Assembly: GCF_022024015.1 (NCBI RefSeq)
Contig: NZ_CP091786.1
Coordinates: 2,790,001-2,854,000, forward strand
Direction: 5' to 3'
Length of the DNA: 64,000 nucleotides
From: Prevotella sp. E9-3
Lineage (GTDB): Bacteria > Bacteroidota > Bacteroidia > Bacteroidales > Bacteroidaceae
In this document: piece by piece, positions 11,798-57,484 of the stretch
Layout: every line of letters begins with the position of its first letter
Numbering within the stretch: the first letter of the stretch is position 1
Program-made: the position numbers and the translations under genes
The notes under the pieces: generated by a model
Seen by the model: the letters and a program-made list of their open reading frames with translations, nothing else
Told to the model about the DNA's origin: nothing
Databases searched by the model: none

Positions 11798-12658
11798 TCA
11801 GTTGTCCTGCTTCTTGTACTCCTGAGGATAGATGCCGGTGACGCGCTTGAAGTAGCGACAGAAGTTGCCTGTGGTGGGGAAACCGAGTTCCAAGGCGGTG
11901 GCCTTGACAGACAGGTGAGGGTCGGTGTCCATGATACGCTTGGCCCGGGTGCAGACATGCTGACCAATGTAGTCGAGGGCGGAGATGCCGTGGCTTACCT
12001 TGAGGAAGAGCTTGGAGAAGTAGCGGGTGGAATAACCGAGCTGCGCGGCATAGAATTGCACATCGCGGTGCTCGCGGTGGTGCGCCACCACGAGGTCGCA
12101 GAAGTGGGCGTAGAGGGCTGCCGTCTGGTTGTCGCGCCACTGCCGGTCCTGCTCCTTCCAGTAGTAGTTCACAAACTCATAGCCCACTGCCAATTGCGTG
12201 AGCAACATCTGACGGCGCAGCTGCAGGTCGGTAGTATCGTGCATGGCGATGGCGGCGAGCAGTTTGGCATTGGCCATCACACGGTCGGCCTGCTCGTCGG
12301 TGAGCTGACAGGTGGGGGCGCTGTTAAACTTGTAGGAGTCGTGGCTGAAGAGGTAAGCATTGATGTCCTTGAGCAGTTCCGACGAGACGACGGTGCGGGC
12401 GTATGTAAAGTCATCGGAGCACTCCACAGCCCGCATGAAATGGCCTGGCATCATGACCAACAGGTTGTTCTTTTCAACCGTTATTTCCTGCATATCATAA
12501 ACGAAACGTGCCGTTCCTCGCAGACACAGGTGGATGGCTATGCCAGGAAAGGAGAGGTTTGCACCGGGGAAGGCGAAGCCGTGTATCTCGTTGTTCACAT
12601 CTACCCCCCTCTGCTCAATGTTTTGTATCAGTTTGTTATACTCTGGAAAGGTTCTCAT
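11798..12658 (-). CDS. AraC family transcriptional regulator
   Basis: 286 residues. The N-terminal half (about 25-130) looks like a cupin/AraC sensing domain (HLCLRGTARFVYDMQEITVEKNNL), and the C-terminal 100 residues form the two helix-turn-helix motifs of AraC: the first around RDVQFYAAQLGYSTRYFSKLFLK and the second around VKATALELGFPTTGNFCRYFKRVTGIYPQEYK. It should bind DNA and respond to a small ligand not identifiable here. It is transcribed away from the starch-binding-type secreted protein gene, from which it is separated by 608 bases, so that gene and its small downstream partner are its likeliest targets. Confidence 0.92.
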   Translation of the reverse strand: MRTFPEYNKLIQNIEQRGVDVNNEIHGFAFPGANLSFPGIAIHLCLRGTARFVYDMQEITVEKNNLLVMMPGHFMRAVECSDDFTYARTVVSSELLKDINAYLFSHDSYKFNSAPTCQLTDEQADRVMANAKLLAAIAMHDTTDLQLRRQMLLTQLAVGYEFVNYYWKEQDRQWRDNQTAALYAHFCDLVVAHHREHRDVQFYAAQLGYSTRYFSKLFLKVSHGISALDYIGQHVCTRAKRIMDTDPHLSVKATALELGFPTTGNFCRYFKRVTGIYPQEYKKQDN

Positions 12659-12800
12659 AAGTTGTGTTTCATTACTTTACGGTTGTAAAGTTACGACTAT
12701 TTTGTGAAAAATGCGCTTTTTTCTTACTTTTTGATAACAAAAATGCGAAAATTGGTAGCACTATTACTATAAAAGGATAATGTAGAAAAGAAAAAGACAG

Positions 12801-12985
12801 TATCTTTGTACCCAAAATAAGAAATAAGACTAAACTAGAGTATTACATTCATGCCAACACTCGCCCATGCGCTCGGCTATGCTGAGACCTACAGGACGAT
12901 AACATTTGGCAAATGTAAATGTACTAAAGAGGCACGCGGAAGCTCCATGACGGGCAACTGCGTGCCTCGTGACATATTTGTATAA
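12801..12985 (+). ncRNA. Possible short transcript with 44-codon frame and hairpin
   Basis: A -7-like TATCTTTG (12801-12808) precedes a stretch with an uninterrupted 44-codon frame (12851-12985, beginning MPTLAHALGY and with a CKC motif) and the hairpin GAGGCACGC/GCGTGCCTC. The opposite strand also carries a 28-codon frame through the same hairpin, so coding is doubtful and a structured RNA or repeated intergenic element is as likely. No ribosome-binding site stands before the ATG, and no T run follows the hairpin on this strand. Confidence 0.3.
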
Positions 12986-13059
12986 AAAAAATTAATCGTT
13001 TGCACAGTTTCAGAATCATTTTTAGCACATAAAGCGCTACCACCTATTTAATAATATAT

Positions 13060-13067
13060 TACCTTTG
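13060..13067 (+). promoter_or_regulatory. Putative -7 box for the secreted protein/small peptide cassette
   Basis: TACCTTTG matches TAnnTTTG. It is the last such box before the secreted-protein start at 13267 and leaves a leader of about 195 bases. No clear TTTG was found at -33. Confidence 0.4.
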
Positions 13068-13266
13068 CCCGTTGGAAAATAATTCTAATTGATCACAAAC
13101 GGTGTAACATGAAAGACTATTTACTATCCCTTCACCCATGCAATTCTGTATTGCACACTATTCCGCCCTATTCTATCATGGACATGCGAGCGGGAACCAT
13201 GCTTAGTTATCCCTCTTTTCTCTGAAAACTTACTAACAAAATAAATAACGATTAAAATCTACCAAA

Positions 13267-14556
13267 ATGAAAAAACTTTTACTTATGATGCTCCTCATAG
13301 TGGGAGGAGTGAATGCTGCGAGTGCGTGGGGCGACATGTACCTTGTGTGCGGAGAAAACAACAACTGGAGCACATCAGACAACAATGCTAATTTCAAGTT
13401 CACTTGGATGTCTGAAAATAATTACAAGATTATTGTTCCTGGTAGTTATGTAAACTCAGGAAATTGGTATTTCCGGTTTAGAGACACTTCAAGTGATACA
13501 TGGACAAACATAGGTCCTGCCAGCTCCGCAAATGACGCAGATGTTACAAACACAACTGTGACAACAGATTGGAAAAATTCAAGCAAAGCTTTTTACATAA
13601 CCCAAAACGCTGATGCGAAATGGGTTTCAATTACTATTTCATGGAGCAATGGAAATAATAATTGGGCTGTCAGCGGAAGCTATATAACCGATTATAACAC
13701 GATAGCAATTGTTAGTCCGAATGGCTGGGAAAACACTTATGTTTACACGTATGTTCAAGAATCAGCGAGAGACATACCATCTTCAGGAGTTTGGCCTGGC
13801 ACAAAAATTACAGCCAACAATGGTATTCATATTGCAGAAGTTCCCGCCGGGTCAAAAATTATCATGAACAACGGAACCGGTGGAGAAGGAAATCAATACC
13901 CTTCAAACGGAGGATTTGACGCAACCAATAATGGAGTATATGATAGTAATGGTTTACAAACGACAACAAATGTTTCCGTCAGCTCATACGGCGTGGCAAC
14001 CTTCTGCTCAAATTATCCTTTAGACTTTACAGGCATTGAAGACGTAAAAGCATATACCATTATACGCTCAGACAAAGCAACGGGAGCATTGACAAAAAGT
14101 CAGGTAACTGGTAAAGTTGCGGCTGGTACGGGACTATATCTTGAGGGAACTGCTAATGCAAGCGTGGACGTTCCCACCACTATCTATACTGAATCAGCAG
14201 GTACCAACAGGCTGGTTGGTGTTACCTCTGACACTAATATCAGTCAGACTGACGGCGACTACACCAACTATATCCTAACCGTTAACAAGGTGGGAGGCGA
14301 CGTTGCCACGCCTAAATTCTATAAGGTGAATTCAAAAGGCAATACGGTATTGGCCAACAGAGCTTATCTCCAGATTCCTACTGAGCAGGCATCACGCGAG
14401 TCGTTCTGGTTCGAAGATGGAGTAATAACCGCTATTGAATCAGCCAAGCAGGAGCAGAGCCTCAATGGCGTAGCCTACAATCTTGCAGGCCAGCGCATCG
14501 CCCAGCCAACAAAGGGCCTCTACATTGTGAATGGAAAGAAAATAATTATGAAATAA
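13267..14556 (+). CDS. Secreted starch-binding-type protein with Prevotella C-terminal module
   Basis: 429 residues. The signal peptide ends around NAASA (residue 20). Residues about 23-125 (MYLVCGENNNWS, then many Trp/Asn and short strands) resemble SusE/F-type starch-binding folds; residues about 145-225, with GWENTYVYTYV, VWPGTKI and VPAGSKIIMNNG, look like a CBM26-type starch-binding module. From about 235 to the end runs a module shared with the large LRR protein at 21.8-25.2 kb: GVATFCS, AGTGLYLEG, RAYLQIP, FWFEDG and the terminal YNLAGQRI...KGLYIVNGKKIIMK. That ending resembles a T9SS sorting domain. A small peptide gene follows after 21 bases. Likely a surface or secreted glucan-binding protein; no catalytic residues are visible. 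Confidence 0.8.
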   Translation: MKKLLLMMLLIVGGVNAASAWGDMYLVCGENNNWSTSDNNANFKFTWMSENNYKIIVPGSYVNSGNWYFRFRDTSSDTWTNIGPASSANDADVTNTTVTTDWKNSSKAFYITQNADAKWVSITISWSNGNNNWAVSGSYITDYNTIAIVSPNGWENTYVYTYVQESARDIPSSGVWPGTKITANNGIHIAEVPAGSKIIMNNGTGGEGNQYPSNGGFDATNNGVYDSNGLQTTTNVSVSSYGVATFCSNYPLDFTGIEDVKAYTIIRSDKATGALTKSQVTGKVAAGTGLYLEGTANASVDVPTTIYTESAGTNRLVGVTSDTNISQTDGDYTNYILTVNKVGGDVATPKFYKVNSKGNTVLANRAYLQIPTEQASRESFWFEDGVITAIESAKQEQSLNGVAYNLAGQRIAQPTKGLYIVNGKKIIMK

Positions 14557-14577
14557 AAAAGAAAGGAGAAAATACAT

Positions 14578-14724
14578 ATGAAAAAGATTTATTCTGCCCC
14601 CAAAACGATGATTGTAGGACTGAAAATAGAGTCTTTACTCCAATCATATAGCAATACAGAAGCTGCGGAACGCGCTACATCACTCTCGCGCGGCGGCTCT
14701 TGGGATGATGATGAAGAAGAATAA
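14578..14724 (+). CDS. Small acidic-tailed peptide, cassette partner of surface protein
   Basis: A 48-residue gene with a good ribosome-binding site (AGGAG 9 bases before the ATG) starting 21 bases after the secreted-protein stop. The peptide begins MKKIYSAPKT, has a short hydrophobic stretch ending in a Leu pair (ESLLQS), and ends SLSRGGSWDDDEEE. A second gene of the same layout (MKKTY start, LL-x-x-S, then SRRNNFWDED) lies after the LRR surface protein at 21.6-21.8 kb, which supports real coding. There is no classic signal peptide. Function unknown; a chaperone, a modified-peptide precursor or a regulatory peptide are possibilities. A strong terminator closes the unit. Confidence 0.75.
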   Translation: MKKIYSAPKTMIVGLKIESLLQSYSNTEAAERATSLSRGGSWDDDEEE

Positions 14725-14749
14725 TAGATACAGAATACTCTTACAGTAC

Positions 14750-14791
14750 AAAACAATAGCGGCGATGAATCATTATCGCCGCTATTGTTTT
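14750..14791 (+). terminator. Terminator of the secreted protein/small peptide unit
   Basis: Perfect 17-base stem (14750-14766 with 14775-14791) around an 8-base loop, GC-rich in its upper part (AGCGGCGAT) and ending in TTTT. Confidence 0.85.
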
Positions 14792-14857
14792 GGAATAGAA
14801 CGAGAATAAAAAATCAAAAAATAACAAGGAAAAACGTATTTATCAAAGGAAAATATG

Positions 14858-14865
14858 TATCTTTG
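14858..14865 (+). promoter_or_regulatory. Putative -7 box of parAB operon
   Basis: TATCTTTG matches TAnnTTTG and lies 31 bases before the parA ATG. The -33 region lacks a clear TTTG. Confidence 0.5.
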
Positions 14866-14896
14866 CAGTTCTTAAACTAAAGAAAAGAGATTGGAA

Positions 14897-15661
14897 ATGG
14901 GAAAAATTATTGCTTTAGCCAATCAGAAAGGCGGCGTGGGCAAGACCACTACAACCATTAATCTGGCTGCTTCGCTGGCCACACTTGAGAAATCTGTTCT
15001 GGTGGTCGATGCTGACCCACAGGCCAACGCTTCCAGCGGACTGGGCGTTGACATCAAGGAGGTGGACTGCTCCATTTACGAATGCATTATCGACAAGGCT
15101 GACGTGCGCGATGCTATCTACACCACCGATATCGACGGACTTGATATCATTCCCAGTCATATAGACTTGGTGGGTGCCGAGATTGAGATGCTGAACCTGC
15201 AAAACCGCGAGAAGGTTATCAAACAGTTGTTGGACCCCATCCGTTCAGAATACGACTATATCCTTATTGACTGCTCGCCTTCGTTGGGCCTCATCACGGT
15301 GAACGCCCTGACAGCCGCCGATTCGGTGATCATCCCTGTTCAATGCGAATACTTTGCACTGGAAGGTATTTCTAAACTCCTCAACACTATCAAGATTATC
15401 AAATCGAAACTAAACCCGAGGCTGGAAATTGAGGGCTTCCTGCTCACGATGTACGACTCTCGCCTGCGCCTGGCCAATCAGATTTACGACGAGGTGAAGC
15501 GTCATTTCCAAGAACTCGTGTTCAAAACAGTTATTCAGCGTAACGTCAAACTGTCAGAGAGTCCCAGTCACGGACTACCCGTCATCCTCTACGATGCCGA
15601 CTCTACTGGTTCAAAGAACCATCTGGCTTTAGCAAAGGAAATCATTAACAAGAACAAATAA
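14897..15661 (+). CDS. parA: Chromosome partitioning ATPase ParA
   Basis: 254 residues from the ATG at 14897; an in-frame TTG two codons earlier is less likely. ParA/Soj ATPase that with ParB segregates chromosomal origins. It shows the deviant Walker A motif QKGGVGKTTTTINLA at the N-terminus, VDADPQANASSGLG, and the Walker B-like YDYILIDCSPSLGLITVNAL. It is directly followed by parB with no gap and by three further envelope and stress genes on the same strand. Its length and motifs suit the chromosomal Soj type rather than plasmid ParA with an HTH extension. Confidence 0.95.
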   Translation: MGKIIALANQKGGVGKTTTTINLAASLATLEKSVLVVDADPQANASSGLGVDIKEVDCSIYECIIDKADVRDAIYTTDIDGLDIIPSHIDLVGAEIEMLNLQNREKVIKQLLDPIRSEYDYILIDCSPSLGLITVNALTAADSVIIPVQCEYFALEGISKLLNTIKIIKSKLNPRLEIEGFLLTMYDSRLRLANQIYDEVKRHFQELVFKTVIQRNVKLSESPSHGLPVILYDADSTGSKNHLALAKEIINKNK

Positions 15662-21638: not shown

Positions 21639-21836
21639 TTAATAACAGTCCTCCCCGTCTTCGTCCCAGAAATTGTTACGACGACTTAAACCTGTATCAA
21701 CCTCGGTATCAGGATCAATTCCTCCTCCATTTTCTGTTTCTCCTTCTTGTAAATAGGAGCCTGCCAGCAGGGGAACTGCCTTGATAAGCAGTTCCCTTGT
21801 GACGGGTTATTGATATGTTTTCTTCATCTGTTTCAT
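21639..21836 (-). pseudogene. Small acidic-tailed peptide gene with in-frame stop
   Basis: A 65-codon frame lies 11 bases downstream of the LRR surface-protein stop and is homologous in layout to the 48-residue peptide at 14.6 kb. From its second ATG (21827) it reads MKKTYQ, then TAA at 21809-21807, then continues in frame as PVTRELLIKAVPLLAGS, a Gly/Glu/Asp-rich middle, and LSRRNNFWDEDGEDCY before the final TAA at 21641. One substitution (AAA or CAA to TAA) explains the break; the rest of the frame is intact and keeps the family's features, so the mutation is recent or the stop is read through. No in-frame start codon is obvious between the stop and the Leu pair. Confidence 0.65.
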
Positions 21837-21847
21837 ACCTTTTAGAG

Positions 21848-24800
21848 TTACTTTATCACGACCTTCTTACCATTCTTAATATAGAGGCCACGTCCAGCCT
21901 TCTCTACGCGTTGTCCCTTCAGGTTATAGAGATGCTCATTGCTGTTGGTGAACAGTTCGAAATCGCTGATATTAGTGGTTATATCAGTTCCATCATCCTC
22001 GAAAGCAATGCTGATAGCACGAGCTTCCTCTGAACCTGACATAAACGAGGTAGGCACCTGCAGGTAAGCCTTTTGGGCTCCAAGCGTTGCCGTCTCCGAG
22101 GGAGCGAAGAATCCATATTCGCCGTCCACCTTGTTGAGCAGGAAGTTGCTCATGTCGCCAGAAGTCTTGGCAATCGAGCTTGCAGTGAGGTTTGCTTTGA
22201 GCATATTCACATAGTAGGCCTGCGAAGTGCTATATGGAATCTTATAGGTCACACCAGCCTCACCCTTCAGATAGAGACCTGTGCCAGCAGGAATGTCATA
22301 GACACGTACCAGAAGCACTACTTTGCTGTTCTTGTTATAACCAGCGGCGATGTAAGCTTTGAGTCCACTGCCGGTGAAGTTCAGGTCTTGAGCGCAACTG
22401 AAGGTACTCACGCCCTGAGCCAGAGTAATGAACTCCTTCGTAGCGTTGAAGGTAGCTACAACAACCACGTTGCCAGTAACATTATGGATAGTGTACTGCC
22501 CGTCAACCACGTATGCAGTCACATCCTCACCGTTCACAGTCAGCGTATTCAGTGTGCGATCCTCGTCTTCGGCAATGGTAATCACCACATCGTCACCATA
22601 CTTAGGATTCATATTGTCGGCACTAACGCCACCACCCGTGATACTTACGGTATAGGTCAGCTCCGTCCAAGTAGCCGTCACCGTCATATTTTCAGCAGGC
22701 ATCGTCTCAGGCAGTTCAGGTGTCCATCCTGCGAAGTTGCATCCAGGCTTTGTAGGATCGTCAGGAGCTGTCACCGTGGTCCCGTAGTCTTGAGTGATGG
22801 GATCAACAGCAGAACCTCCATTACTATCAAACGTGATGGTGTACTTGTTCACCTGCCAGGTAGCGGTGTAGGCCAGATGACCTGTGCTGCCCTGAGCAAT
22901 CGTCACTTCCATCATAGCATCGCCCTCGCCATTCAGCTTCCAGCCCTTGAAGGTATGACCCGTCTTGGTGGGGTTGTTCAGCGTGAAGGTTTCGGTCTCG
23001 ATGGTGTAAGTCGTGGGATTAGCAGGAGTAGCCGTACCGCCATCCATCGTGTACACAATATTATATACAGTAGGTGTCCATGTGGCGGTATATGCCAAGT
23101 GGCCTGTGCTGCCCTGAGCGATGGTGACAGTCATCATAGCCTCGCCTACGCCATTGAGCTTCCAGCCTGCGAAGTCATAACCTGCCTTCGTCGGGTTGTT
23201 CAGCGTGAAGGTCGTTGTCTCGATGGTGTAAGTTTCGGGGTTCGTTGCCGTACCACCGTTCAGCGTTAAGATCAGGTCGTATTTGATGGCAGAGAACGAG
23301 GCGACAACAGTCTGGTCGGCCAGCAGGTTGCTGACGGTGTATTTGCCTTCTGTAGGTGTCTTGGCTTCGCTGTTTACAGTGAAGGTCTTCAACTCATAAC
23401 CTGTGGCAGGAGTAACGGTGAACACAGCATCCGTCTCGCGGTCGATAAGGGTGGTCTTCGTTTCATTGTTGGTAGAGCTAATATCAGCAACAGCCAGCGT
23501 ACCATGAGCCGAAGCTGTGATGCTGACCACAAAGCTGGCGAAATTTTTGTGAGCGAACTCCTTCCAGTTATCAGCTGCCTCGTATGCATCCATTGTTCCG
23601 CCAGGAACCCACAGCGTGGCATTTTCCAACTCGGTGTCGTTGAAAATACCTTCATCTATTGTGATAGGTGTCAGCCAAGGAGTCTTCACGTTGGTCAACA
23701 ATCCTGAGATAGGCGCACTGATCTTGGTCACCTTTGAGCCGAACTCTACACTCGTGGCACTGACGAAAATTGGGTTAACCTCTTCTCCTGTCAGTGTCAG
23801 GTCACGACCAATGTAAATGGTGGTGGCTGGACTCCAGAAAGGACGTTCATACCATGTTCCTGGCATGATCAATGGAGTCTCGCTATCCTCAATGGTGATG
23901 CTGGCCATGCTATTGCAGTTTTGGAATGCAGCATCGCCAATGGTCATCACAGAAGCAGGAATGGTGACGCTGGTTAAACTACTTCCATTAAATGCCTCAT
24001 TGCCAATGGTTGTCAGTTTTGAAGGCAACGTGACGGATTTTATATGAGTACAATCTTTAAAAGCATTTGTGCCGATGCTCGTCACGTTGCTGCCCATCGT
24101 CACCACAGTTTCAGTAACCTCATCTGATTGGCCACATGCAAGAAAAGCCGACTCACCGATGGTGGTTACACCATTGCCAATAATGATGCTTGCCAGTTTG
24201 GAGTTACTATAGAACAACGCAGGATTAATGGTGGTTACTTGCGGGCCAAACTCCACACTGGTGGCATCGTAAGTGAGTGGGTTAACCTCTTCTCCTGTCA
24301 GTGTCAGGTCACGACCAATGTAAATGGTGGTGGCTGGACTCCAGAAAGGACGTTCATACCATGTTCCTGGCATAATCAATGGAGTCTCGCTATCCTCAAT
24401 GGTGATGCTGGCCATGCTATTGCAGTTTTGGAATGCAGCATCGCCAATGGTCATCACAGAAGCAGGAATGGTGACGCTGGTTAAACTACTTCCATTAAAT
24501 GCCTCATTGCCAATGGTTGTCAGTTTTGAAGGCAACGTGACGGATTTTATATGAGTACAATCTTTAAAAGCATTTGTGCCGATGCTCGTCACGTTGCTGC
24601 CCATCGTCACCACAGTTTCAGTAACCTCATCTGATTGGCCACATGCAAGAAAAGCCGACTCACCGATGGTGGTTACACCATTGCCAATAATGATGCTTGC
24701 CAGTTTGGAGCTACTATAGAACAACGCAGGATTAATGGTGGTTACTTGCGGGCCAAACTCCACACTGGTGGCATCGTAAGTGAGTGGGTTAACCTCTTCT

Positions 24801-25240
24801 CCTGTCAGTGTCAGGTCACGACCAATGTAAATGGTGGTGGCTGGACTCCAGAAAGGACGTTCCCACCATGTTCCTGGCATGGTCAATGGAGTCTCGCTAT
24901 CCTCAATGGTGATGCTGGCCAAGCTGCCGCAACTTTGGAATGCAGCATCGCCAATGGTCATCACAGAAGCAGGAATGGTGACGCTAGTGATTCCTGTTTC
25001 ATAGAAACCGCTGGCTCCAACTGCAGTCACCGCATAGTCTACATCCTCGTAGGTCACACTCGACGGGATGACCAGTGCACTGGTGAAGGTAGCCTCGTCA
25101 GCCTTAGCAATTGCAACGTAATGATTTACTTCATCTGTCACCGTATATTTGAAATTACCTTCGGTGAACGTAGTTGGTTCTTGTGCCCATCCGGCTATCG
25201 CCGTGAGAACGAACAGGAATGAAAATAGTAGTCTTTTCAT
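21848..25240 (-). CDS. BspA-like leucine-rich repeat surface protein
   Basis: 1130 residues from the ATG at 25240, which gives a clean signal peptide ending GWA; a frame start at 25297 adds an unlikely leader. Residues about 60-560 hold LRR_5/BspA-type repeats (SLTSVTIPASVMTIGDAAFQ, THIKSVTLPSKLTTIGNEAF) including two nearly identical 169-residue blocks. Then come three InlB B-/Listeria-Bacteroides repeats (about 640-860; GYDFAGWKLNG, GHTFKGWKLNG, GCNFAGWTP). The last roughly 190 residues share the C-terminal module of the 13.3-kb secreted protein: GVSTFSCAQDLNFTG, AGTGLYLKG, KAYLQVPTSF, YNLKGQRVEKAGRGLYIKNGKKVVIK. BspA relatives act in adhesion and some are T9SS cargo. The small-peptide pseudogene follows directly. 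Confidence 0.9.
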   Translation of the reverse strand: MKRLLFSFLFVLTAIAGWAQEPTTFTEGNFKYTVTDEVNHYVAIAKADEATFTSALVIPSSVTYEDVDYAVTAVGASGFYETGITSVTIPASVMTIGDAAFQSCGSLASITIEDSETPLTMPGTWWERPFWSPATTIYIGRDLTLTGEEVNPLTYDATSVEFGPQVTTINPALFYSSSKLASIIIGNGVTTIGESAFLACGQSDEVTETVVTMGSNVTSIGTNAFKDCTHIKSVTLPSKLTTIGNEAFNGSSLTSVTIPASVMTIGDAAFQNCNSMASITIEDSETPLIMPGTWYERPFWSPATTIYIGRDLTLTGEEVNPLTYDATSVEFGPQVTTINPALFYSNSKLASIIIGNGVTTIGESAFLACGQSDEVTETVVTMGSNVTSIGTNAFKDCTHIKSVTLPSKLTTIGNEAFNGSSLTSVTIPASVMTIGDAAFQNCNSMASITIEDSETPLIMPGTWYERPFWSPATTIYIGRDLTLTGEEVNPIFVSATSVEFGSKVTKISAPISGLLTNVKTPWLTPITIDEGIFNDTELENATLWVPGGTMDAYEAADNWKEFAHKNFASFVVSITASAHGTLAVADISSTNNETKTTLIDRETDAVFTVTPATGYELKTFTVNSEAKTPTEGKYTVSNLLADQTVVASFSAIKYDLILTLNGGTATNPETYTIETTTFTLNNPTKAGYDFAGWKLNGVGEAMMTVTIAQGSTGHLAYTATWTPTVYNIVYTMDGGTATPANPTTYTIETETFTLNNPTKTGHTFKGWKLNGEGDAMMEVTIAQGSTGHLAYTATWQVNKYTITFDSNGGSAVDPITQDYGTTVTAPDDPTKPGCNFAGWTPELPETMPAENMTVTATWTELTYTVSITGGGVSADNMNPKYGDDVVITIAEDEDRTLNTLTVNGEDVTAYVVDGQYTIHNVTGNVVVVATFNATKEFITLAQGVSTFSCAQDLNFTGSGLKAYIAAGYNKNSKVVLLVRVYDIPAGTGLYLKGEAGVTYKIPYSTSQAYYVNMLKANLTASSIAKTSGDMSNFLLNKVDGEYGFFAPSETATLGAQKAYLQVPTSFMSGSEEARAISIAFEDDGTDITTNISDFELFTNSNEHLYNLKGQRVEKAGRGLYIKNGKKVVIK
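23771..24985 (-). repeat. 507-base tandem repeats inside the LRR gene
   Basis: The bases TGGGTTAACC recur at 23771, 24278 and 24785, exactly 507 apart. The units 23771-24277 and 24278-24784 differ at only about two bases that I can see (near 23869/24376 and 24203/24710); a partial third unit reaches about 24985. Each unit encodes 169 residues of LRR, so gain or loss keeps the frame. Confidence 0.9.
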
Positions 25241-25378: not shown

Positions 25379-27034
25379 TTAGGAAACTTGAGTATCCTTC
25401 CACTCCTTAGGTGTCATGCCTAAGTGGGCCTTGAAGGTACGGAAGAACGACATTTCGTTGGCGAAGCCCGATTGCAGCGCAACGGCTGCCACCTTGATGT
25501 CAGGCTGACTGACAAGCAACTGCTTGGCATAGTCAATACGGTAGGCGTTGACAAACTGCGAGAAGGAACAGCCACGTGCTGCCTTGATACAATCTGACAC
25601 GTTACGGCTGTTTGTACCTGCCAGTTCGGCAATGTCGGCCACCTTCAACTCACTGTTCAGATAGGGTTTCTCATTCTCCATCAGGTCGCAGATACGCGCC
25701 AACAACAGATTGTCGGGCAGAGTAGAGTCGTCAGGCACAGCAACAGACTGTGGTTTCCGTTTTCTTCTGAGGAGCCATAAAGCGGCGGCACCGCCCGTCA
25801 ATACGGCAATGAAGAGTAGCGACAGCCAGAGCCAGCCGTTACCGGCCTCTGCCTCAACGTCATCGGTGGTACCAAGGTGGAATCGATACGCAGTAGCAAA
25901 AGGAGTGAAATTATTGTCGGTAATGCCGCCTGTCATCAGCAAATCGCCATCGGGCAGAAGAACAGGAGTAGAGAAAGGCAGGGAATCCTGTAGTTCCGTC
26001 TCATAGAGAGTAAGGCGAGCGGGCTGCTTGTCGTACTCCACAGCAAGGACATACAGATGGAATCTCTCGTCACGCCCCACGACATAGCCTCGGTGGATAG
26101 CACGATCGACTATGACAGACGTGAACCACTCCAAGCGTCCTCCTGCCTTAACGCTCATGGGGATGCTGCAATCGGTAGGCAGCAATTGAAGGTCGGTGCC
26201 CTCCAGTTTGGCTATTGCTGCCTCTTGGCTCTTTTTGTTAAGCACCAAGAGCAGATAGGCGTACTGGCACGAATCCCGACTGATACGACTGGCTTCGGCC
26301 GGTTTGGGAAGCAGCACGGATATGGGATACCACTCGTTGAACAGCGGCATCTGCGGAGCATCGCCTTTCAAGCGATCCACAACTACCGTATCGGAGTTGA
26401 GAGCCATGTTTCCGTCCATACATCCTATGACGAGGGCATCGTCTGAAGCTATCGGGAAGATGAAAGGAGAAGCCCGGAAGACCGACACCGACTTGACGAA
26501 CTTGTTCTGTCGCGAACCATCGAACACCTCCATGCAGTCTTCCTCGTAAGAGTTGCCACTGATGAGCACACGTCCGTCTGCCAGCAGGGCCGATGAAGGG
26601 AAGAAGCGTTTCTTCTCCATGCAGCCGTAGCCCTCAAAAGTGCGTGTCTCAGGATCAAAAAGTTCCACGGAAAAAGTCTGTCCTATGCCTAAGGCTTTCT
26701 CATGACCAGCAGCCAGTAGCACTTTGCCCGATGGAAGTGGCTGGCACAAGCCGTGGTCGTGGGTATAGACCATAGGCAACACATGCCACTCACCGTTCTC
26801 GAAATACTCGGCGGTGGGCGTGGGTACGAAACCCGAAGTATGACCTCCCATGACGTATGGGATGCCATTAATGACCAGCGTGCTTCCTCCACCACGTGGG
26901 ATGTTAAGGTCGGGCAGCCGCTCCACCTGCACCTTTTTCACGGTACAGGATATGGAGGTAGCAGCCTGTTGTTGTGCCTTTGCACCCGAGGCGAGCATCA
27001 GGAGCAACAAGATAAACAAGGTACGCACGTACAT
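25379..27034 (-). CDS. Membrane-spanning kelch-propeller AraC-type regulator
   Basis: 551 residues with an unusual layout. A signal peptide (1-20) is followed by about 370 extracytoplasmic residues with kelch/galactose-oxidase-like blades (VMGGHTSGFVPTPTAEYF, PLPSGKVLLAAGH, ALLADGRVLISG, LLPDGDLLMTGG), one transmembrane helix (about 400-422, then the basic stop RRKRK), and a cytoplasmic AraC DNA-binding domain (about 465-547; LKVADIAELAGTNSRNVSDCIK and VAAVALQSGFANEMSFFRTFKAHLGMTPKEWK). It resembles a hybrid two-component regulator stripped of its kinase. It is probably a one-component signal transducer for an outside ligand; the LRR surface protein just downstream is the likely target. Confidence 0.85.
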   Translation of the reverse strand: MYVRTLFILLLLMLASGAKAQQQAATSISCTVKKVQVERLPDLNIPRGGGSTLVINGIPYVMGGHTSGFVPTPTAEYFENGEWHVLPMVYTHDHGLCQPLPSGKVLLAAGHEKALGIGQTFSVELFDPETRTFEGYGCMEKKRFFPSSALLADGRVLISGNSYEEDCMEVFDGSRQNKFVKSVSVFRASPFIFPIASDDALVIGCMDGNMALNSDTVVVDRLKGDAPQMPLFNEWYPISVLLPKPAEASRISRDSCQYAYLLLVLNKKSQEAAIAKLEGTDLQLLPTDCSIPMSVKAGGRLEWFTSVIVDRAIHRGYVVGRDERFHLYVLAVEYDKQPARLTLYETELQDSLPFSTPVLLPDGDLLMTGGITDNNFTPFATAYRFHLGTTDDVEAEAGNGWLWLSLLFIAVLTGGAAALWLLRRKRKPQSVAVPDDSTLPDNLLLARICDLMENEKPYLNSELKVADIAELAGTNSRNVSDCIKAARGCSFSQFVNAYRIDYAKQLLVSQPDIKVAAVALQSGFANEMSFFRTFKAHLGMTPKEWKDTQVS

Positions 27035-36858: not shown

Positions 36859-39800
36859 TTGAAGCGTTTAGCCTATATACTGTGCATCTTACTGAGCATT
36901 ACGGCCTTAGCCATACCGCCGCAAGATGACAACACCCAGCCGAAGAAGCCTGCGCCAAAAGCGCAGCCTAAGTCGGTGTCCACAGAGGATGAGAGCATCC
37001 CCGACTCGCTGGTACACACCCGCTGGCGCATTCAGAAAACCGCACCACTGACTACTGAAGATGCCGACAGCAGTGCGCTGGACTTGCACATGCCGGAGAA
37101 CATCAAGCTTGAAACGGTGTACAACGATTCGCTGAACCTCTATTTTCTCGGTTCAAAGATGGGCGACTCGTATCTCAGCGCCCCCATCCTCATGACGCCT
37201 GAGGAGTATATGAAATGGAGCGAACGGAAGGCCCGACAGGCTTTCTTCCGACAGAAAGATGCCGAGAATGCCGCCGCTAAGGGTAAGGAAAAGTTTGACT
37301 TCACCGACATGCACTTTGACCTGGGACCAGCAGAGAAGATATTCGGACCGGGAGGCGTGCGCATCAAGACTCAGGGAACGGCCGAACTGAAACTGGGCGT
37401 CACCATGAAGAATGTGGAGAACCCCTCACTGCCCATCCGCAACAGAAAAACTACGGCTTTCGACTTCGACGAAAAGATAAACCTGAGCGTGAACGGCAAG
37501 GTGGGCGACAAGGTGAACATGACCTTGAACTACAACACCGATGCCACCTTCGACTTTGACACCAAGAACCTGAAACTGCGCTACGAGGGAAAGGAAGACG
37601 AGATAGTGAAACTGGTGGAAGCCGGCAACGTGTCGTTCCCCTCCAACAACTCGCTGGTGACGGGCGCCTCAAGTCTGTTCGGCATTCGCACCGACCTGCA
37701 GTTTGGCAAACTGAAACTGCAGACGGTACTGTCGCAGAAAAACTCTACCTCGAAAAGCGTGCAGAGCAAAGGCGGAAAACAGACTACCCCCTTCGAACTC
37801 AACGTATCGGACTACGAAGAGAACCGACACTTCTTCCTCTCACACCACTTCCGACAGATGTACGACCGCGCCATGCAGTCGCTGCCCAACCTGACCACAG
37901 GCGTCAAGATAAACCGTGTGGAGGTGTGGGTGACCAACAAGAGCGGTACCACGGCCAACTCGCGCAACATTATTGCCTTCACCGACCTGGGCGAGAATGC
38001 GTACATCAGCAATAAAAACTGGAACCCTACAGGACTCAACGTGCCCAGCAACCTGGCCAACAACGAGTATCAGACGCTGGTGGCACAGATCGACTCGGCA
38101 TCTCGCACCTTCGACATCATCACCTCCCGACTGGAGGCCATACCCGAATTTTACGGCGGCAGCGACTATGAGAAGTTGGCTTCAGCCCGACTGCTCTCGC
38201 AGAACGAATATACCGTGAACACCGCCTTGGGATATATCTCGCTGAAAACAGGACTGCAGACTGACCAAGTGCTGGCCGTAGCCTATGAGTACACTTATGG
38301 CGGACAGACCTATCAGGTGGGTGAATTCTCTACCGACCTGACGCAGACCGACAAGGCGCTTTTCGTCAAATCACTGAAGAACACCAGCAACAACCCCTCT
38401 CAGGGCAACTGGCGCCTGATGATGAAAAACGTGTACTACCTGGCCTCAAACGTGGAACGCGACGGATTCCGACTGGACATCAAATACCAAAGCGATACCA
38501 CGGGTACATATTTGAGTTATCTGCCTGAGGCTCAGCTGAAAAGTACCTTATTGCTTCAGGTGATGGGATTAGACCGACTGGACAAAAACATGAAGCCCCA
38601 CGCCAACGGTCAGTTTGACTATGTGCAGGGATATACCATCGACAACGGCCGCGTGTTCCTGCCATCGGCAGAGCCCTTCGGCAGTTATCTGCGCAACTAC
38701 TTGAAACAGAAAGGACTGGAAAGTCTGGCCGACAAATACTGCTTTGACGCACTCTACGACTCTACCAAGACGTATGCCAAGCAGAATGCCGAGAAGAACA
38801 AGTTCATCATGACCGGACAGTTCCGCGGCAGTTCGGCCAACGTGATATCCCTGGGTGCCTACAACGTGCCGCAGGGTTCGGTGGTGGTGACGGCCGGCGG
38901 TGTGGTGCTGCAAGAAGGCAGCGACTACTCGGTAGATTATTCTGCCGGTGAGGTGACCATTCTGAATCAGAGCATCCTCGATGCAGGAACGAATGTGAAC
39001 GTAAGTCTGGAGGACAACACCCAATATGGCATGCAGCGCAAAACGATGTTCGGCATCAACTGGGAATATGACTTCTCGAAGAATTTCACCTTGAGCGGCA
39101 CCCTGCAGCACCTGCAGGAACAGGCCCTCATCACAAAGGTGTCGATGGGCGAAGAGCCGCTGAACAACACCATCTGGGGACTGAGTCTGAACTGGAAAAA
39201 GGAATCGCAGTGGCTCACCAACATGCTGGACCGCCTGCCCCTGCTGCACCTCACGCAGCCCTCGCAGATATCGTTCACAGGCGAGTTTGCACAACTTATA
39301 GCAGGAAAAGCACGTGGAACACAGGACAATGCCTCGTATATCGATGACTTTGAGAACACGAAAAACCTGCTGGACGTGAGTGATCCTAAAGCATGGTTAT
39401 TGTCGAGCGTGCCTTTTATGTTCCCTAATCACGACGACAAGGAGACGGTGAGCAGCGGCTACGGGCGCGCCTTGCTGGCGTGGTACAACGTAGATCCCAT
39501 CTTCACCCGCCGCTCGTCAAGCTTGACCCCAGGCCATATCAAGAGCGACTTGGAACAACTGTCTAACCACTATGTGCGTGAAGTATATGTGCGCGAACTC
39601 TACCCCAACCGCGACCAGTCCAGCTACAACGGCGCCACCTCTACCCTGCCCGTGCTCAACCTGGCCTACTATCCGCAGGAACGAGGTCCCTACAACCTGA
39701 CCACCGACATGAACGCTGACGGAACACTGAAGAATCCAAAGCAGAAATGGGGCGGTATGATGCGACGACTGGAGACAACCGATTTCGAACAGGCCAACAT

Positions 39801-42800
39801 AGAGTACATTGAATTCTGGCTGCTCGACCCTTATATCTATACGCGTAAGAACGGTACGGCAAGCAGTCACGCCGGAGAGTTGTACATCAACTTAGGCGAA
39901 GTGAGTGAGGATGTGCTCTGTGACGGAAAGAAATTCTATGAAAGTGGCATGCCCGTAGATGGCACTTCACAGTTCACCACCACACAGTGGGGAAAAATCC
40001 CTGTGCAGGCCACACAGACCTACGCATTTGCCACAACCAGCGGTTCACGCCAACTGCAGGATGTGGGATTCAATGGACTGAACAACGACGAGGAACGCCA
40101 GTACGGGGCCTACCAACAGTGGCTGAATGCTATCAGTGGTATAGTGACCAACGACTCATTGATTCAGGCTTGGCGCAACGACCCTGCCGGCGATGACTAT
40201 CACTACTTCCGTGGTAGCGACTTCGACGATCAGCAAATGAGCATCATGGACCGTTACAAGCGCATCAACAATCCGCAAGGCAACTCTCCTGCCAGCGATA
40301 ATCAGACAGAAAGCTACGATACCAGTTACAAGACTGGTCCAGATGTTGAGGACATCAATCAGGACTTCACCCTGAACGAATACGAACGCTATTTCCAATA
40401 CCGTATTCCCATCAGCGATGAAGAACTGCAGGCATACAACCGAGGGGCAAAGAGCGCGAAATCCTATATCGTGGACCATCGTGACTACAATGCCAAACTA
40501 CGTAATGGCGACTCGGCTACTGTTCGCTGGTACCAATACCGTATTCCACTGGCAGAATATCAGGACAAGATTGGTACCATCAATGATTTCACCTCCATCC
40601 GCTTCATGCGTATGTTCCTTACGGGATTTGAACAGCCAATCGTACTCCGATTCGGTTCGCTCGACTTGGTTCGCGGTGAATGGCGCCAGTACAAGAAGAG
40701 TCTGCAGACGGCTGTGGGAGCAGAGACTGGACTAATGGAGATGAGTGCCGTGAACGTGGAAGAGAATACCGACCGCACGCCCGTAGCCTATGTGCTGCCA
40801 CCAGGCATCACCCGTGCCACCGATCCCTCTCAGCCTCAGCTTACAGAGAACAATGAGCAGGCATTATGTCTGACGGTGAAGAATCTGAGTCAGAACGAGT
40901 CAAAGGCTGTCTATAAGAACAGCAACCTGGACTTGCGCAACTATCGCCGACTCCAGATGTTTGTACACGCCAACAATCTGGTGCCCAACGAAACTCAGTT
41001 GGAAGACTACCAGTTGGCAGTATTCATCCGCTTGGGCAGTGACTACAAGAACAACTATTACGAATACCTGATTCCGCTGAAACTGACGCCCGAAGGACAG
41101 TATCGCTGGAACGTTCCCAACGACCGTATTCTGGTATGGCCGGAGGAGAACATGCTCGACATCGACTTGCGCATCTTCACCCAACTGAAGAAGGCACGCA
41201 ACATGGCACGAGCCAATGGCACAGGCAGTTACACAGAGCTGTTCAGCGACTATGACCCAGAAAAGCCCAACAACCGCATCAGTATTATGGGTAACCCCTC
41301 GCTGGGAGAAGTAAAGACCATGATTATCGGTGTGCGCAACCTGTCGAATTCAGCTAAATCGGGTGAGGTGTGGGTCAACGAGCTTAGACTGCGCGAAACC
41401 AACAATGAGGGCGGATGGGCCGCTTCGGGCACCATGAACGTCCAGTTGTCGGACTTCGGTTCGGTGAACGTAACAGGCCGCTATATCACAGACGGATTCG
41501 GCGGACTGGAAGACGGAATCATGCAGCGTAGCACCGACACACAGAAATCGTATGCAGTAACGGCCAATCTGGAAATGGGTAAGTTCTTCCCAGATAAGGC
41601 AAAGGTTACGCTGCCAGTTTACTACTCTTACTCGAAAGAGATTATCAGTCCGAAGTACAACCCACTGGACTCAGACATGGAACTTGACGACGCACTGGCT
41701 TCGGCAAAGGACAGTCATGAGCGTGATTCTATAGAGAGTATCGCACAGACACGCAATATCACACGAAACTTCTCAGTATCGAATGCCCGTGTGGATATTA
41801 AGAACAAAAAGCATCCTATGCCTTATGATCCGGCCAACTTCTCAGTAAGCTATAGCCATGCCCACCGTAAGACTACTGGTGAGACTACCGTTTGGGAAAC
41901 CGACGACCAGTGGCGCGGTGCTTTGAACTATACCTACTCTCCCGTACTGAAGACATGGGAACCGTTCAAGAAGGTAAAGGGCAAGTCTAAATGGCTGAAC
42001 TTCCCCAAGGCTATCGGCTTCAACTTCCTGCCACAAAACATTGCCTTCGGCTCAGAGCTTACCCGTACCTACTACGAACTGCAGGAGCGTGACTTGGAGA
42101 ACACTGTAAATCCGAACCTGCCACTCTCGTTCAGTGAGCAGTTCCTCTTCAACCGTGACTTCCAGTTGCGCTGGGACTTCACCAAAAACCTGCACATGAA
42201 CTTCCAGTCGGCCACTCATGCCGAGATTGAGGAACCTTACACTCCCATCAATAAGGATCTTTACCCCGACCACTATTCAGCATGGAAGGATTCGGTATGG
42301 ACCAGCATCAGGCACTGGGGTGTACCCCTCGACTATCAGCAGTCGTTTACCATGAGCTATCAGTTGCCTATCGACAAGTTGCCCATCACTGACTGGGTGA
42401 AGACCGATGCCTCCTACAATGCCAGCTACTCATGGCAGCGAGGCACAGAACTAGACGATGGCACCTCACTGGGCAACACCATCTCAAACAACAGCAATCT
42501 GACCATCAACGGTGCCTTCAATATGGAGACGCTCTACAATCACTTTGAATTCCTGAAAAAGACCAACGAGCGCTTTAAGAAGCAGAACCGCAGACCAGAC
42601 GCCAAGAAAAAGCCTAAGCGCCCGGAAACAAAGAATGCCAAGACCAAGGAGGGTGAACAGGCCGCAAAGGACGATGCCAAGGAAACAAAGGCACTGCCCA
42701 AGAACAAAAACACCTTCCAGCGTGAGCTGTCGCTACAGGCCGACACGGTGATTGAAGTGATGCACGCCAAGAAATCCAAGCGCCTCATTGTATCGTTCAA

Positions 42801-44409
42801 GGACAGCAAAGGAAAGGCCGTCAACCTGAAATGGAAGGTGATAGATGAAAACAAGATCAAGGTATGGGGCACTGACAGCATGAAGGTGAAAATCAGCGTG
42901 ATGCCCAAGGAGCCCTATGAGAACCAGTGGTGGTATTCACCGGCACAATACACCGCCCGACTGCTGATGATGGTTCGCAACATCAATATCTCCTATCGCC
43001 AGCAGCGCTCCATGACTCTCCCCGGATTCATCCCCAATGTAGGCGATGCCTTCGGACAGCGCACCGGCAGTGTGCTCTCGCCAGGACTTGACTTCGCTTT
43101 CGGACTGGCAGGTGAGAGTTACCTGCAGAAAGCACTCGACAACGACTGGCTGCTCTGCAACGACAGTGTGGCCACACCTTCAACCATGTCGAAAACGGAA
43201 GACCTGCAGCTGAAGGCCACCCTCGAGCCTGTCACCGATCTGAAGATTGACCTCACGGCTTCGCGCACCATGACACGCACCAAGAGCGTACAGTTCATGT
43301 ATGAGAGCTCGCCCACCACACAGAGCGGTTCCTTCAACATGACCACCATTTCTATCCGCAGTGCCTTCGAAGGCATGGGCGACGCTTCCAACGGCTACTA
43401 CTCGGCCTCGTTCGATGAGTTCCGCAACAAGATAGAAGGGTTCCGCCAAAGGGTTCAGGCACAATACGGAAATGCACGTCCGTCAATCGTCAATGCCGAC
43501 GGAACACCCGTGGCTGTGAATCCCATCGATCCCTACTCATCGGATGTGCTCATCCCTGCTTTCCTCAGCACTTACACAGCAGGAGGCTCGTCATCGCTCA
43601 GCATATTCCCTGCACTGACCCGACTACTGCCCAACTGGACGGTGCGCTATAGCGGACTCTCCAAGCTGCCTTGGATTGCCGACCACTTCAAGAGCGTGAA
43701 CCTGAACCACGGCTATAAGTCGGTGTTCAGCATCGGTTCCTACAATAGCTATAGTTCGTGGCTCGAGTACATGGGCGACCTGGGTTTTGTGAAGGCAGCC
43801 GACGGTAGTTATACCCCCTCTTCGATGTACAACGTCTCTACGGTAAGCATCAATGAGGCTTTCTCGCCATTGTTCGGCGTTGATGTCACATTGCACAATA
43901 ACATGACCTTTAAGGTGGAGTACAAGACCACTCGTGTGCTGAACCTCTCCATGACAAGTGTACAGATCAACGAAGCACTCTCAAAGGACTGGGTGATTGG
44001 TATGGGCTACAAAATCTCCAACCTCAACATCTTCGGCATGGGCAACAGCCGTAAGGTAAAAGGTAGTAACAAGAATAACGGAAAAGACAACAACGATAAC
44101 AACAAGAATCAGCAACAGTCACGCCAAAGCAACAAGGGTGGCATTAACCACGACCTGAACACCCGCGTGGATGTGTCGTTCAGAAATCAGGCAGCCATCA
44201 CCCGTGATATTGCCTCAGGAGTTTCATCTGCCAGCAGCGGAAATCAGGCATTGAAGATTTCTTTCTCGGCAGAATACACACTCTCACGCTATCTGAGCAT
44301 GAGTGCCTACTACGAGCGGCAGACCAACACGCCACTGCTCTCGGCCAACAGCTATCCTACTACCACGCAAGACTTCGGTGTATCACTGAAATTCTCTTTG
44401 ACCCGATAG
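36859..44409 (+). CDS. sprA: T9SS outer-membrane translocon SprA (Sov)
   Basis: 2516 residues, the size of SprA/Sov, the giant 36-strand barrel that exports type 9 secretion cargo. Supporting segments: the early repeat-like FDEKINLSVNGKVGDKVNMTLNYNTDATFDFD, KLRYEGKEDEIVKLVEAGNVSFP and SSLFGIRTDLQFGKLKLQTVLSQ, a long middle with FDDF-type jelly-roll strands, and a C-terminal barrel ending DFGVSLKFSLTR. Two low-complexity inserts stand out: Lys/Ala/Glu-rich (about 1905-1955) and Asn/Gln/Lys-rich (about 2400-2425). The start is TTG; I found no in-frame ATG nearby and AAAAGAGAA precedes it. The signal peptide is about 1-18. It implies that the cell exports proteins carrying C-terminal sorting domains. 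Confidence 0.93.
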   Translation: MKRLAYILCILLSITALAIPPQDDNTQPKKPAPKAQPKSVSTEDESIPDSLVHTRWRIQKTAPLTTEDADSSALDLHMPENIKLETVYNDSLNLYFLGSKMGDSYLSAPILMTPEEYMKWSERKARQAFFRQKDAENAAAKGKEKFDFTDMHFDLGPAEKIFGPGGVRIKTQGTAELKLGVTMKNVENPSLPIRNRKTTAFDFDEKINLSVNGKVGDKVNMTLNYNTDATFDFDTKNLKLRYEGKEDEIVKLVEAGNVSFPSNNSLVTGASSLFGIRTDLQFGKLKLQTVLSQKNSTSKSVQSKGGKQTTPFELNVSDYEENRHFFLSHHFRQMYDRAMQSLPNLTTGVKINRVEVWVTNKSGTTANSRNIIAFTDLGENAYISNKNWNPTGLNVPSNLANNEYQTLVAQIDSASRTFDIITSRLEAIPEFYGGSDYEKLASARLLSQNEYTVNTALGYISLKTGLQTDQVLAVAYEYTYGGQTYQVGEFSTDLTQTDKALFVKSLKNTSNNPSQGNWRLMMKNVYYLASNVERDGFRLDIKYQSDTTGTYLSYLPEAQLKSTLLLQVMGLDRLDKNMKPHANGQFDYVQGYTIDNGRVFLPSAEPFGSYLRNYLKQKGLESLADKYCFDALYDSTKTYAKQNAEKNKFIMTGQFRGSSANVISLGAYNVPQGSVVVTAGGVVLQEGSDYSVDYSAGEVTILNQSILDAGTNVNVSLEDNTQYGMQRKTMFGINWEYDFSKNFTLSGTLQHLQEQALITKVSMGEEPLNNTIWGLSLNWKKESQWLTNMLDRLPLLHLTQPSQISFTGEFAQLIAGKARGTQDNASYIDDFENTKNLLDVSDPKAWLLSSVPFMFPNHDDKETVSSGYGRALLAWYNVDPIFTRRSSSLTPGHIKSDLEQLSNHYVREVYVRELYPNRDQSSYNGATSTLPVLNLAYYPQERGPYNLTTDMNADGTLKNPKQKWGGMMRRLETTDFEQANIEYIEFWLLDPYIYTRKNGTASSHAGELYINLGEVSEDVLCDGKKFYESGMPVDGTSQFTTTQWGKIPVQATQTYAFATTSGSRQLQDVGFNGLNNDEERQYGAYQQWLNAISGIVTNDSLIQAWRNDPAGDDYHYFRGSDFDDQQMSIMDRYKRINNPQGNSPASDNQTESYDTSYKTGPDVEDINQDFTLNEYERYFQYRIPISDEELQAYNRGAKSAKSYIVDHRDYNAKLRNGDSATVRWYQYRIPLAEYQDKIGTINDFTSIRFMRMFLTGFEQPIVLRFGSLDLVRGEWRQYKKSLQTAVGAETGLMEMSAVNVEENTDRTPVAYVLPPGITRATDPSQPQLTENNEQALCLTVKNLSQNESKAVYKNSNLDLRNYRRLQMFVHANNLVPNETQLEDYQLAVFIRLGSDYKNNYYEYLIPLKLTPEGQYRWNVPNDRILVWPEENMLDIDLRIFTQLKKARNMARANGTGSYTELFSDYDPEKPNNRISIMGNPSLGEVKTMIIGVRNLSNSAKSGEVWVNELRLRETNNEGGWAASGTMNVQLSDFGSVNVTGRYITDGFGGLEDGIMQRSTDTQKSYAVTANLEMGKFFPDKAKVTLPVYYSYSKEIISPKYNPLDSDMELDDALASAKDSHERDSIESIAQTRNITRNFSVSNARVDIKNKKHPMPYDPANFSVSYSHAHRKTTGETTVWETDDQWRGALNYTYSPVLKTWEPFKKVKGKSKWLNFPKAIGFNFLPQNIAFGSELTRTYYELQERDLENTVNPNLPLSFSEQFLFNRDFQLRWDFTKNLHMNFQSATHAEIEEPYTPINKDLYPDHYSAWKDSVWTSIRHWGVPLDYQQSFTMSYQLPIDKLPITDWVKTDASYNASYSWQRGTELDDGTSLGNTISNNSNLTINGAFNMETLYNHFEFLKKTNERFKKQNRRPDAKKKPKRPETKNAKTKEGEQAAKDDAKETKALPKNKNTFQRELSLQADTVIEVMHAKKSKRLIVSFKDSKGKAVNLKWKVIDENKIKVWGTDSMKVKISVMPKEPYENQWWYSPAQYTARLLMMVRNINISYRQQRSMTLPGFIPNVGDAFGQRTGSVLSPGLDFAFGLAGESYLQKALDNDWLLCNDSVATPSTMSKTEDLQLKATLEPVTDLKIDLTASRTMTRTKSVQFMYESSPTTQSGSFNMTTISIRSAFEGMGDASNGYYSASFDEFRNKIEGFRQRVQAQYGNARPSIVNADGTPVAVNPIDPYSSDVLIPAFLSTYTAGGSSSLSIFPALTRLLPNWTVRYSGLSKLPWIADHFKSVNLNHGYKSVFSIGSYNSYSSWLEYMGDLGFVKAADGSYTPSSMYNVSTVSINEAFSPLFGVDVTLHNNMTFKVEYKTTRVLNLSMTSVQINEALSKDWVIGMGYKISNLNIFGMGNSRKVKGSNKNNGKDNNDNNKNQQQSRQSNKGGINHDLNTRVDVSFRNQAAITRDIASGVSSASSGNQALKISFSAEYTLSRYLSMSAYYERQTNTPLLSANSYPTTTQDFGVSLKFSLTR

Positions 44410-57226: not shown

Positions 57227-57256
57227 TTGTTTATTTCCAAAATATTCATACCTTTG
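57227..57256 (+). promoter_or_regulatory. Promoter of the btuB/cbiK unit
   Basis: TTG (57227-57229), 19 bases, TACCTTTG (57249-57256), directly before the cobalamin riboswitch. Confidence 0.65.
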
Positions 57257-57263
57257 CAGCCGA

Positions 57264-57436: not shown

Positions 57437-57484
57437 TAGTACCCGTGTACAGGAATATACTCGAGGGAAAGCAAACTTGTTTTT

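Follow-up and report, generated by a model that had tools for sequence, protein, structure and literature searches.

In a 64,000-nucleotide stretch of Prevotella sp. E9-3 (contig NZ_CP091786.1, positions 2,790,001 to 2,854,000; hereafter the window, in whose own numbering all coordinates are given), a secreted protein and a protein of only 48 residues are encoded one behind the other. Our data strongly support a two-gene unit in which a surface protein bearing a particular C-terminal module is accompanied by a short, acidic-tailed protein. Judged by its motifs, the module resembles a short C-terminal signal of the type IX secretion system (T9SS), and the large proteins are thus putative T9SS cargo. 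A genuine short gene lies at 14578-14724, and since no description of such a gene was found in the openly licensed literature that we searched, we regard this small partner of T9SS cargo units as previously undescribed. Unit 1 of the window is laid out as follows, where CTD denotes a C-terminal domain.

13267-14556, + strand: gene for the putative T9SS cargo of unit 1 (429 codons), encoding a signal-like N-terminal start (judged by eye), a variable region, a penultimate beta domain and a short C-terminal signal
13963-14412, + strand: penultimate beta domain of the unit 1 cargo, whose presence predicts the small gene (profile matches, leave-one-out scoring, predicted beta fold)
14428-14553, + strand: short CTD-type C-terminal signal of the unit 1 cargo, TAIES...YNLAGQR...KGLYIVNGKKIIMK, a seed of the signal profile, with motifs B, D and E
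14562-14568, + strand: Shine-Dalgarno-like AAAGGAG, 9 nt 5' of the small-gene ATG, read from the sequence
14578-14724, + strand: unit 1 small partner gene (48 codons), MKKIYSAP...LSRGGSWDDDEEE, 21 nt behind the cargo open reading frame
14749-14792, + strand: terminator-like hairpin 3' of the two-gene unit, with a 20-bp stem, -33 kcal/mol and z -8.4

An initial annotation, made from the letters of the window, had described the two reading frames, the 21-nt gap between them and a good ribosome-binding site, all of which were found. It had also described a strong terminator, for which the outcome is divided: the hairpin is there and is strong, but a pattern-based scan that requires a T tract after the stem listed nothing in 14500-14900. 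A protein search with the unit 1 small protein returned five homologues at 92-96 percent identity.

The arrangement extends well beyond the two copies from which the initial annotation had proposed a functional unit. A codon pattern for MKKxYxxP matches 14 places in the genome, versus none for the reversed pattern, and 12 of the 14 sit 15-50 nt 3' of a gene ending in a module of the YxLxGxR..GLYIxNGKKVVxK type, a placement with a probability of 1.7e-35 under a simple placement model. The other two are locus L015, which adjoins a gene for a fimbrillin-like lipoprotein and is taken up below, and L022, probably a chance match. A profile built from the twelve module C-termini finds 108 matching places in the genome. 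Reading the DNA behind all 108 signal genes revealed a gene of the small family after 20 of them, 19 intact and one, the copy in unit 2 of the window, interrupted. Eight of these 20 units are absent from the first twelve, and three of the eight (L040, L049 and L067) have the lowest small-gene scores, at 20, 14 and 17 bits. Of 155 small genes, 47 are preceded by a Shine-Dalgarno-like 4-mer, where 22 would be expected.

The same placement is found in other species. A stricter pattern, which adds W-D-D/E, returned at least 120 stretches from titled bacterial and archaeal contigs, and these are treated here as a sample; most of the 80 stretches listed come from bins of rumen-type Prevotella, Prevotellaceae or Bacteroidaceae. 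Among the matches listed (123), 113 are open frames, and for 94 of these a script placed the end of a CTD-type frame no more than 150 nt upstream, with the reservation that 13 of the 94 assignments score below 25 profile bits and that six of the cargo C-termini are doubtful as normal CTDs (L220, L274, L277, L285 and, twice, L287). Eight of the remaining 19 open frames are cut by the end of the stretch, and for nine of the other eleven a CTD protein lies at a distance of -4 to +352 nt. In six of these nine the small gene overlaps the cargo stop (gaps of -4 or -1), an arrangement suggestive of translational coupling. At L179 and L293 no CTD protein lies upstream. The small gene thus stands just behind a cargo-type gene in 103 of 105 assessable matches of the sample, or in 97 of 105 without the six doubtful C-termini. 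Some loci depart from the usual form: the protein ahead of the small gene ends in ..NGKxxIxKNGxKYNAxGA.. instead of the usual CTD at L277, L285, L287 and L362, the family member at L293:1166 follows a protein with a C-terminal repeat that looks dockerin-like by eye, and L252 and L218 carry two small genes in tandem.

Within the genus, 70 of the 80 genomes sampled, among them the window's own, contain a match to a 38-sequence profile with an E-value of 0.001 or less. Of 30 genus loci that were fetched, 23 (one of them from the window's own genome) pass our expression for a CTD, three more show a CTD by eye (L368, L369 and L379), one has a different C-terminus (L362), and in three no CTD was seen by eye (L363, L370 and L372). 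Searching Prevotella genomes for short frames behind genes with this module was the check that the initial annotation had proposed, and both conservation of the short frame and its preference for sites behind the module, the two properties on which that annotation had staked its claim, were found. In a phylum-wide sample of 392 genomes, the first version of the stricter pattern matches eight, namely the window's own, G340 and six others; the matched DNA in those six is unlike the small-gene family.

The small-protein family was examined in 151 non-redundant members of 43-75 residues (mean 56). The protein has a basic MKKxYxxP start, an amphipathic stretch with a hydrophobic end, a polar linker that is variable and rich in G, S, D, E and T, and finally a Trp that leads into an acidic tail. 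Residues 1-12 carry a net charge of about +2 and the part from the Trp onward about -4, a polarity that is partly imposed by the search patterns. In the 157-peptide set these patterns fix or limit M1, K2, K3, Y5, P8, the Trp and the residue after it, as well as the next acidic residue in the share found with the stricter pattern, so that only other positions count as conservation. Such positions are V, I or L at 12, 13 and 15, L, I or M at 21 (83 percent) and S at 24 (68 percent). Inspection of the members by eye revealed neither a signal peptide nor a CTD, and a 15-residue window with hydropathy above 1.6 occurs in only 8 of 157 members; because so few have a hydrophobic stretch, an export signal is unlikely.

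The family is coding and under purifying selection, a result of a family-wide test and not of the unit 1 gene alone. Across 14 pairs in which each sequence was used once, the ratio of nonsynonymous to synonymous substitution rates (dN/dS) is below 1 in 11; two further pairs are saturated at synonymous sites with the proportion of nonsynonymous differences (pN) far below that of synonymous ones (pS), and one, formed by two copies in L287, gives 1.7. Pooled pN/pS over the 14 pairs is 0.37, which is how the comparison of synonymous with nonsynonymous change suggested at the outset came out. As to the earlier statement that automatic annotation misses the peptide, a few database members do exist under the name 'hypothetical protein'. 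No corresponding family is present in Pfam, NCBIfam or PHROGs: a scan of 38 members touched seven families, each with one or two members and at E 0.012 or worse.

Short CTDs of Prevotella intermedia carry a Tyr and Gly in motif B, GxY/GxN in motif D and a basic motif E, with cleavage near T/G-I, according to the excerpts of that report used here (PMC11969387). Over the 108 profile places, the C-terminal module matches these signals motif by motif, in B, D and E and in its basic end. Because the unit 1 cargo is matched at E 0.1 by no Pfam entry and no NCBIfam family, T9SS sorting models included, its assignment as a putative CTD rests on these motifs together with SprA, the one T9SS component for which we searched and which is encoded in the window itself:

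37078-44400, + strand: SprA/Sov, T9SS outer-membrane translocon (TIGR04189, 2622 bits)

Judged by eye, most of the cargo translations from the 18 sister units, the units of this genome outside the window, begin with a signal-like stretch; reading from the first Met, none is evident in L033 and L049.

The presence of the small gene is predicted by the domain ahead of the signal, not by the signal alone. This domain, about 160 residues immediately before the CTD, is common to the 20 cargos and follows the pattern W/G-x-T-F-x-x-P...AGTPYLL...RAYLxxP...AR...FxDDxTTGI. At E below 1e-4 it is present in 20 of 20 unit cargos under leave-one-out scoring versus 7 of 88 CTD genes without a small gene, a comparison in which the profile was trained on peptide-bearing cargo and leave-one-out corrects the positives only. 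A profile of the domain by itself, seeded with 17 of the 20 units, finds 29 copies in the genome, and the 18 strongest (the 17 seeds and L034) all precede a small gene, counting the interrupted copy. AlphaFold2 predicts the domain as a confident beta fold, with a predicted local distance difference test score (pLDDT) above 80 in most 10-residue blocks; comparison with solved structures gave no convincing match. The parts of the cargo N-terminal to the domain vary, with LRR_5, Big_2, InlB-type repeats, CBM26 or no Pfam match, in a scan of the two window units and 17 of the 18 sister units, all but L044/L349 with its 2149-residue cargo.

The second unit of the window lies on the opposite strand.

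21848-25240, - strand: putative T9SS cargo gene of unit 2, with LRR_5, List_Bact and InlB-type repeats, then the penultimate domain and a short CTD at 21851-21976
21639-21827, - strand: small partner gene of unit 2, with an in-frame stop at codon 7

That this surface protein ends in the same module had been noted before and holds, as its C-terminus is related to residues 235-429 of the unit 1 cargo (38 percent identity, E 2.4e-18). The accompanying peptide had been described as of the same kind as that of unit 1, but its gene is not intact: from its ATG it reads M-K-K-T-Y-Q, then the stop, and then a frame that is open to 21639. Searched with the part behind the stop, it has 47 homologous proteins, the closest 96 percent identical, and because 44 of the 47 have an intact start of the M-K-K..Y..P type, the unit 2 gene is an interrupted member of a conserved lineage. 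An inner stop is also present in four other listed matches of the family (G645, two in G829, and G707). At 23800-25000, within the leucine-rich-repeat region of the unit 2 cargo, the sequence shows near-identical internal repeats about 507 bp apart.

An AraC-type regulator had been described as a shared part of the arrangement. Both window units do have one nearby:

11798-12658, - strand: AraC-type regulator, divergent neighbor of unit 1 (HTH_18, weak AraC_binding match)
25379-27034, - strand: AraC-type regulator 5' of unit 2, in tandem (HTH_18, weak Kelch matches)

The two are of different types by their domain matches and stand in different orientations relative to their units, and with a search profile built from these two regulators, an AraC-type helix-turn-helix frame appears near only 1 of the 18 sister units, in a stretch of 5-12 kb around each. 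The unit therefore does not regularly include an AraC regulator. Elsewhere in the window, a cobalamin riboswitch lies at 57249-57442 on the + strand.

What might the small protein do? We favor, tentatively and at somewhat less than an even chance, the reading drawn from the genomic data that it is a dedicated helper of its cargo, probably cytoplasmic and made together with it. The data fit a dedicated partner because the small gene accompanies one type of cargo, is probably on the same message, starts close to or overlapping the cargo stop, and encodes no evident export signal. We propose that the small protein would be translated from the cargo's message just as the cargo's last domain exits the ribosome. 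In the absence of an evident export signal, it would most likely stay in the cytoplasm, where its extended N-terminal half could attach to the penultimate domain or to the signal next to it, perhaps by contributing an extra beta strand. Such binding may keep the cargo C-terminus export-competent until Sec takes the protein; it is also conceivable that the acidic Trp tail hands the cargo to a common factor. Cargo that lacks the domain would, on this proposal, need no partner. Predicted alone, the first 20 residues of the small protein score about 85 pLDDT without strand or helix, which might be how an unbound strand looks and is no evidence of binding. For the 66 well-scored cargo and peptide pairs among the 94 of other genomes, distances between peptides are correlated with those between domains (r 0.33) and between CTDs (r 0.35), with 0 of 2000 permutations as high.

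Several observations weigh against the helper reading. Co-divergence is weak within this genome (r 0.18 and 0.19, with 84 and 167 of 2000 permutations as high), and the domain and CTD of one and the same protein correlate no better with each other, at r 0.26 in the 66 pairs and 0.02 in this genome; linked inheritance alone could be the cause. When the cargo end, its stop written as glycine, the spacer and the small protein were joined in one chain and folded with AlphaFold2 from 58 rows (57 relatives, 19 of them likewise joined), domain and signal were confident, but the small protein did not dock, remaining at a pLDDT of about 50-63 with no strands. The partner is dispensable for some cargo, because seven domain-bearing CTD genes have no small gene and the copy in unit 2 is interrupted.

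The distribution of the small-gene pattern supports a tie to T9SS, with exceptions. Across 249 genomes of the taxonomic family, SprA was found in 157 and the small-gene pattern in 55, and the pattern occurs in 48 of 157 SprA-positive versus 7 of 92 SprA-negative genomes (compared by hand; Fisher p 1.4e-5), a comparison that is confounded by the relatedness of the genomes and in which frames were read only for matches with a fetched locus. Four of the SprA-negative matches (G431, G443, G494 and G605) are closed frames and are chance matches. Removing only these gives p 2.8e-8, a flattering value in that the SprA-positive match in G522 (L168), which stops before the Trp, is retained. The other SprA-negative genomes with a match are G340, G604 and G397. 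The last of these is near-complete and has seven pattern-level matches and no SprA match, while SprA is present in other genomes listed for its genus; at the level of the pattern, G397 stands as a counterexample to a tie with T9SS.

The wider peptide superfamily, moreover, is not strictly bound to T9SS and is found next to surface proteins of two or more classes, because related peptides adjoin fimbrillin-like lipoproteins and one does so in a genome without detected SprA. At L015 of this genome (1441206, - strand), a MKKxYxxP peptide lies directly upstream of such a lipoprotein, which has no Pfam match and for which 'fimbrillin-like' is our own label. The same order, peptide upstream of lipoprotein, recurs in G340 (L134:1501-1686), where SprA was not found. 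These peptides share with the small proteins of the T9SS units the MKKxYxxP start, small residues near position 24 and the adjoining surface-protein gene; they differ in lying upstream of that gene and in lacking the W-D-D-E tail. A bolder version of the helper reading would accommodate them: a widespread class of Prevotella-type T9SS cargo would depend on cognate micro-chaperones, in which a partner of about 56 residues, encoded beside its cargo and produced in step with it, recognizes the penultimate domain in the cytoplasm; T9SS would thereby have a dedicated cytoplasmic stage, and sister peptides would serve the fimbrillin-like lipoproteins. We consider this version possible but doubtful.

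Alternatively, the small protein could be a regulatory or feedback peptide that, free or bound to cargo, reports the state of cargo synthesis or secretion to the translation apparatus or a regulator, with the result that the output of surface proteins would be matched to need. Both the lack of an evident export signal and the strong hairpin 3' of the unit 1 small gene agree with such a role, as does the occurrence of a similar peptide beside a different surface class, the fimbrillin-like lipoproteins. A general sensor, however, would not be expected to be tied to a single cargo domain, and an AraC-type gene is near only 1 of 18 units, other types of regulator having been outside that search. 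On balance we judge a regulatory role unlikely.

We find it quite improbable that the family consists of leader-type precursors, in which residues 1-24 (MKKxYxxP...LLAxS) would act as a recognition leader and the rest would be cut off, modified and exported. YxxP leaders serve recognition by lasso-peptide enzymes, and the small proteins have a YxxP near their start (largely selected by the search pattern), a serine or small residue near position 24 and a variable middle; 2 of 38 members weakly match the lasso-peptide family NF033524. As in lasso-peptide precursors, the YxxP lies in a leader-like N-terminal stretch. Against this reading, the best match, E 0.014, is close to what chance would give when 38 members are scanned, the W-acidic end does not resemble a variable core, and the lasso-type leader protease PF13471 was not found in the genome by a search that matched 2 of 14 control genomes (one of them over the cut-off) and had PqqD-type proteins outside its scope.

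Equally little probability attaches to the small gene as a hitch-hiker of little function of its own, carried along when the C-terminal cassette of the cargo was duplicated or swapped. Linked inheritance would also produce the observed co-divergence, and the inner stops in unit 2 and in four other listed matches agree with such a passenger, but the purifying selection, the constrained positions outside the search pattern and the presence of the family in 70 of 80 genus genomes all speak against it. Finally, a partner exported with or after the cargo as part of the displayed surface structure would explain the pairing with surface-type proteins, but is very unlikely given the low hydropathy, the lack of a signal peptide or CTD on inspection by eye and the lack of predicted docking.

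Returning to the small protein as a dedicated cargo helper, a role in export, if true, would add a cargo-specific step to T9SS, and the domain together with the small gene would mark a class of cargo. If the protein instead proved to be regulatory, rumen and gut bacteria would have a novel way of controlling their surface proteins. Catalogues of small proteins gain a family with a defined genomic context.

Type III secretion chaperones are small, acidic, cytoplasmic proteins encoded beside one cargo. The resemblance is to a way of working only, a small acidic partner beside a single cargo; the secretion route is another one, and here it is the C-terminus of the cargo, not the N-terminus, that is implicated. 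On the cargo side, the closest likeness is to the short-CTD cargo of Prevotella intermedia, which, in the excerpts used, shares the signal of about 42 residues, the Y-x-x-x-G of motif B, the GxY/GxN of motif D, the basic end and the T/G-I ahead of it, and likewise includes leucine-rich-repeat and adhesin-like proteins in the presence of SprA (PMC11969387). The small gene behind the cargo and the domain preceding the signal are the new parts here, and those excerpts mention no such gene. For the partner gene as such there is a precedent in T9SS itself: cargo with a type B CTD is usually clustered with a cognate PorP/SprF gene, and PorP/SprF is linked to the cell surface, as described in a review of T9SS cargo (PMC10202324). 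In both systems a T9SS cargo gene stands beside a dedicated partner gene, whereas the partner encoded by the units described here is a soluble-looking protein of about 56 residues, paired with a CTD of the short pattern known from P. intermedia.

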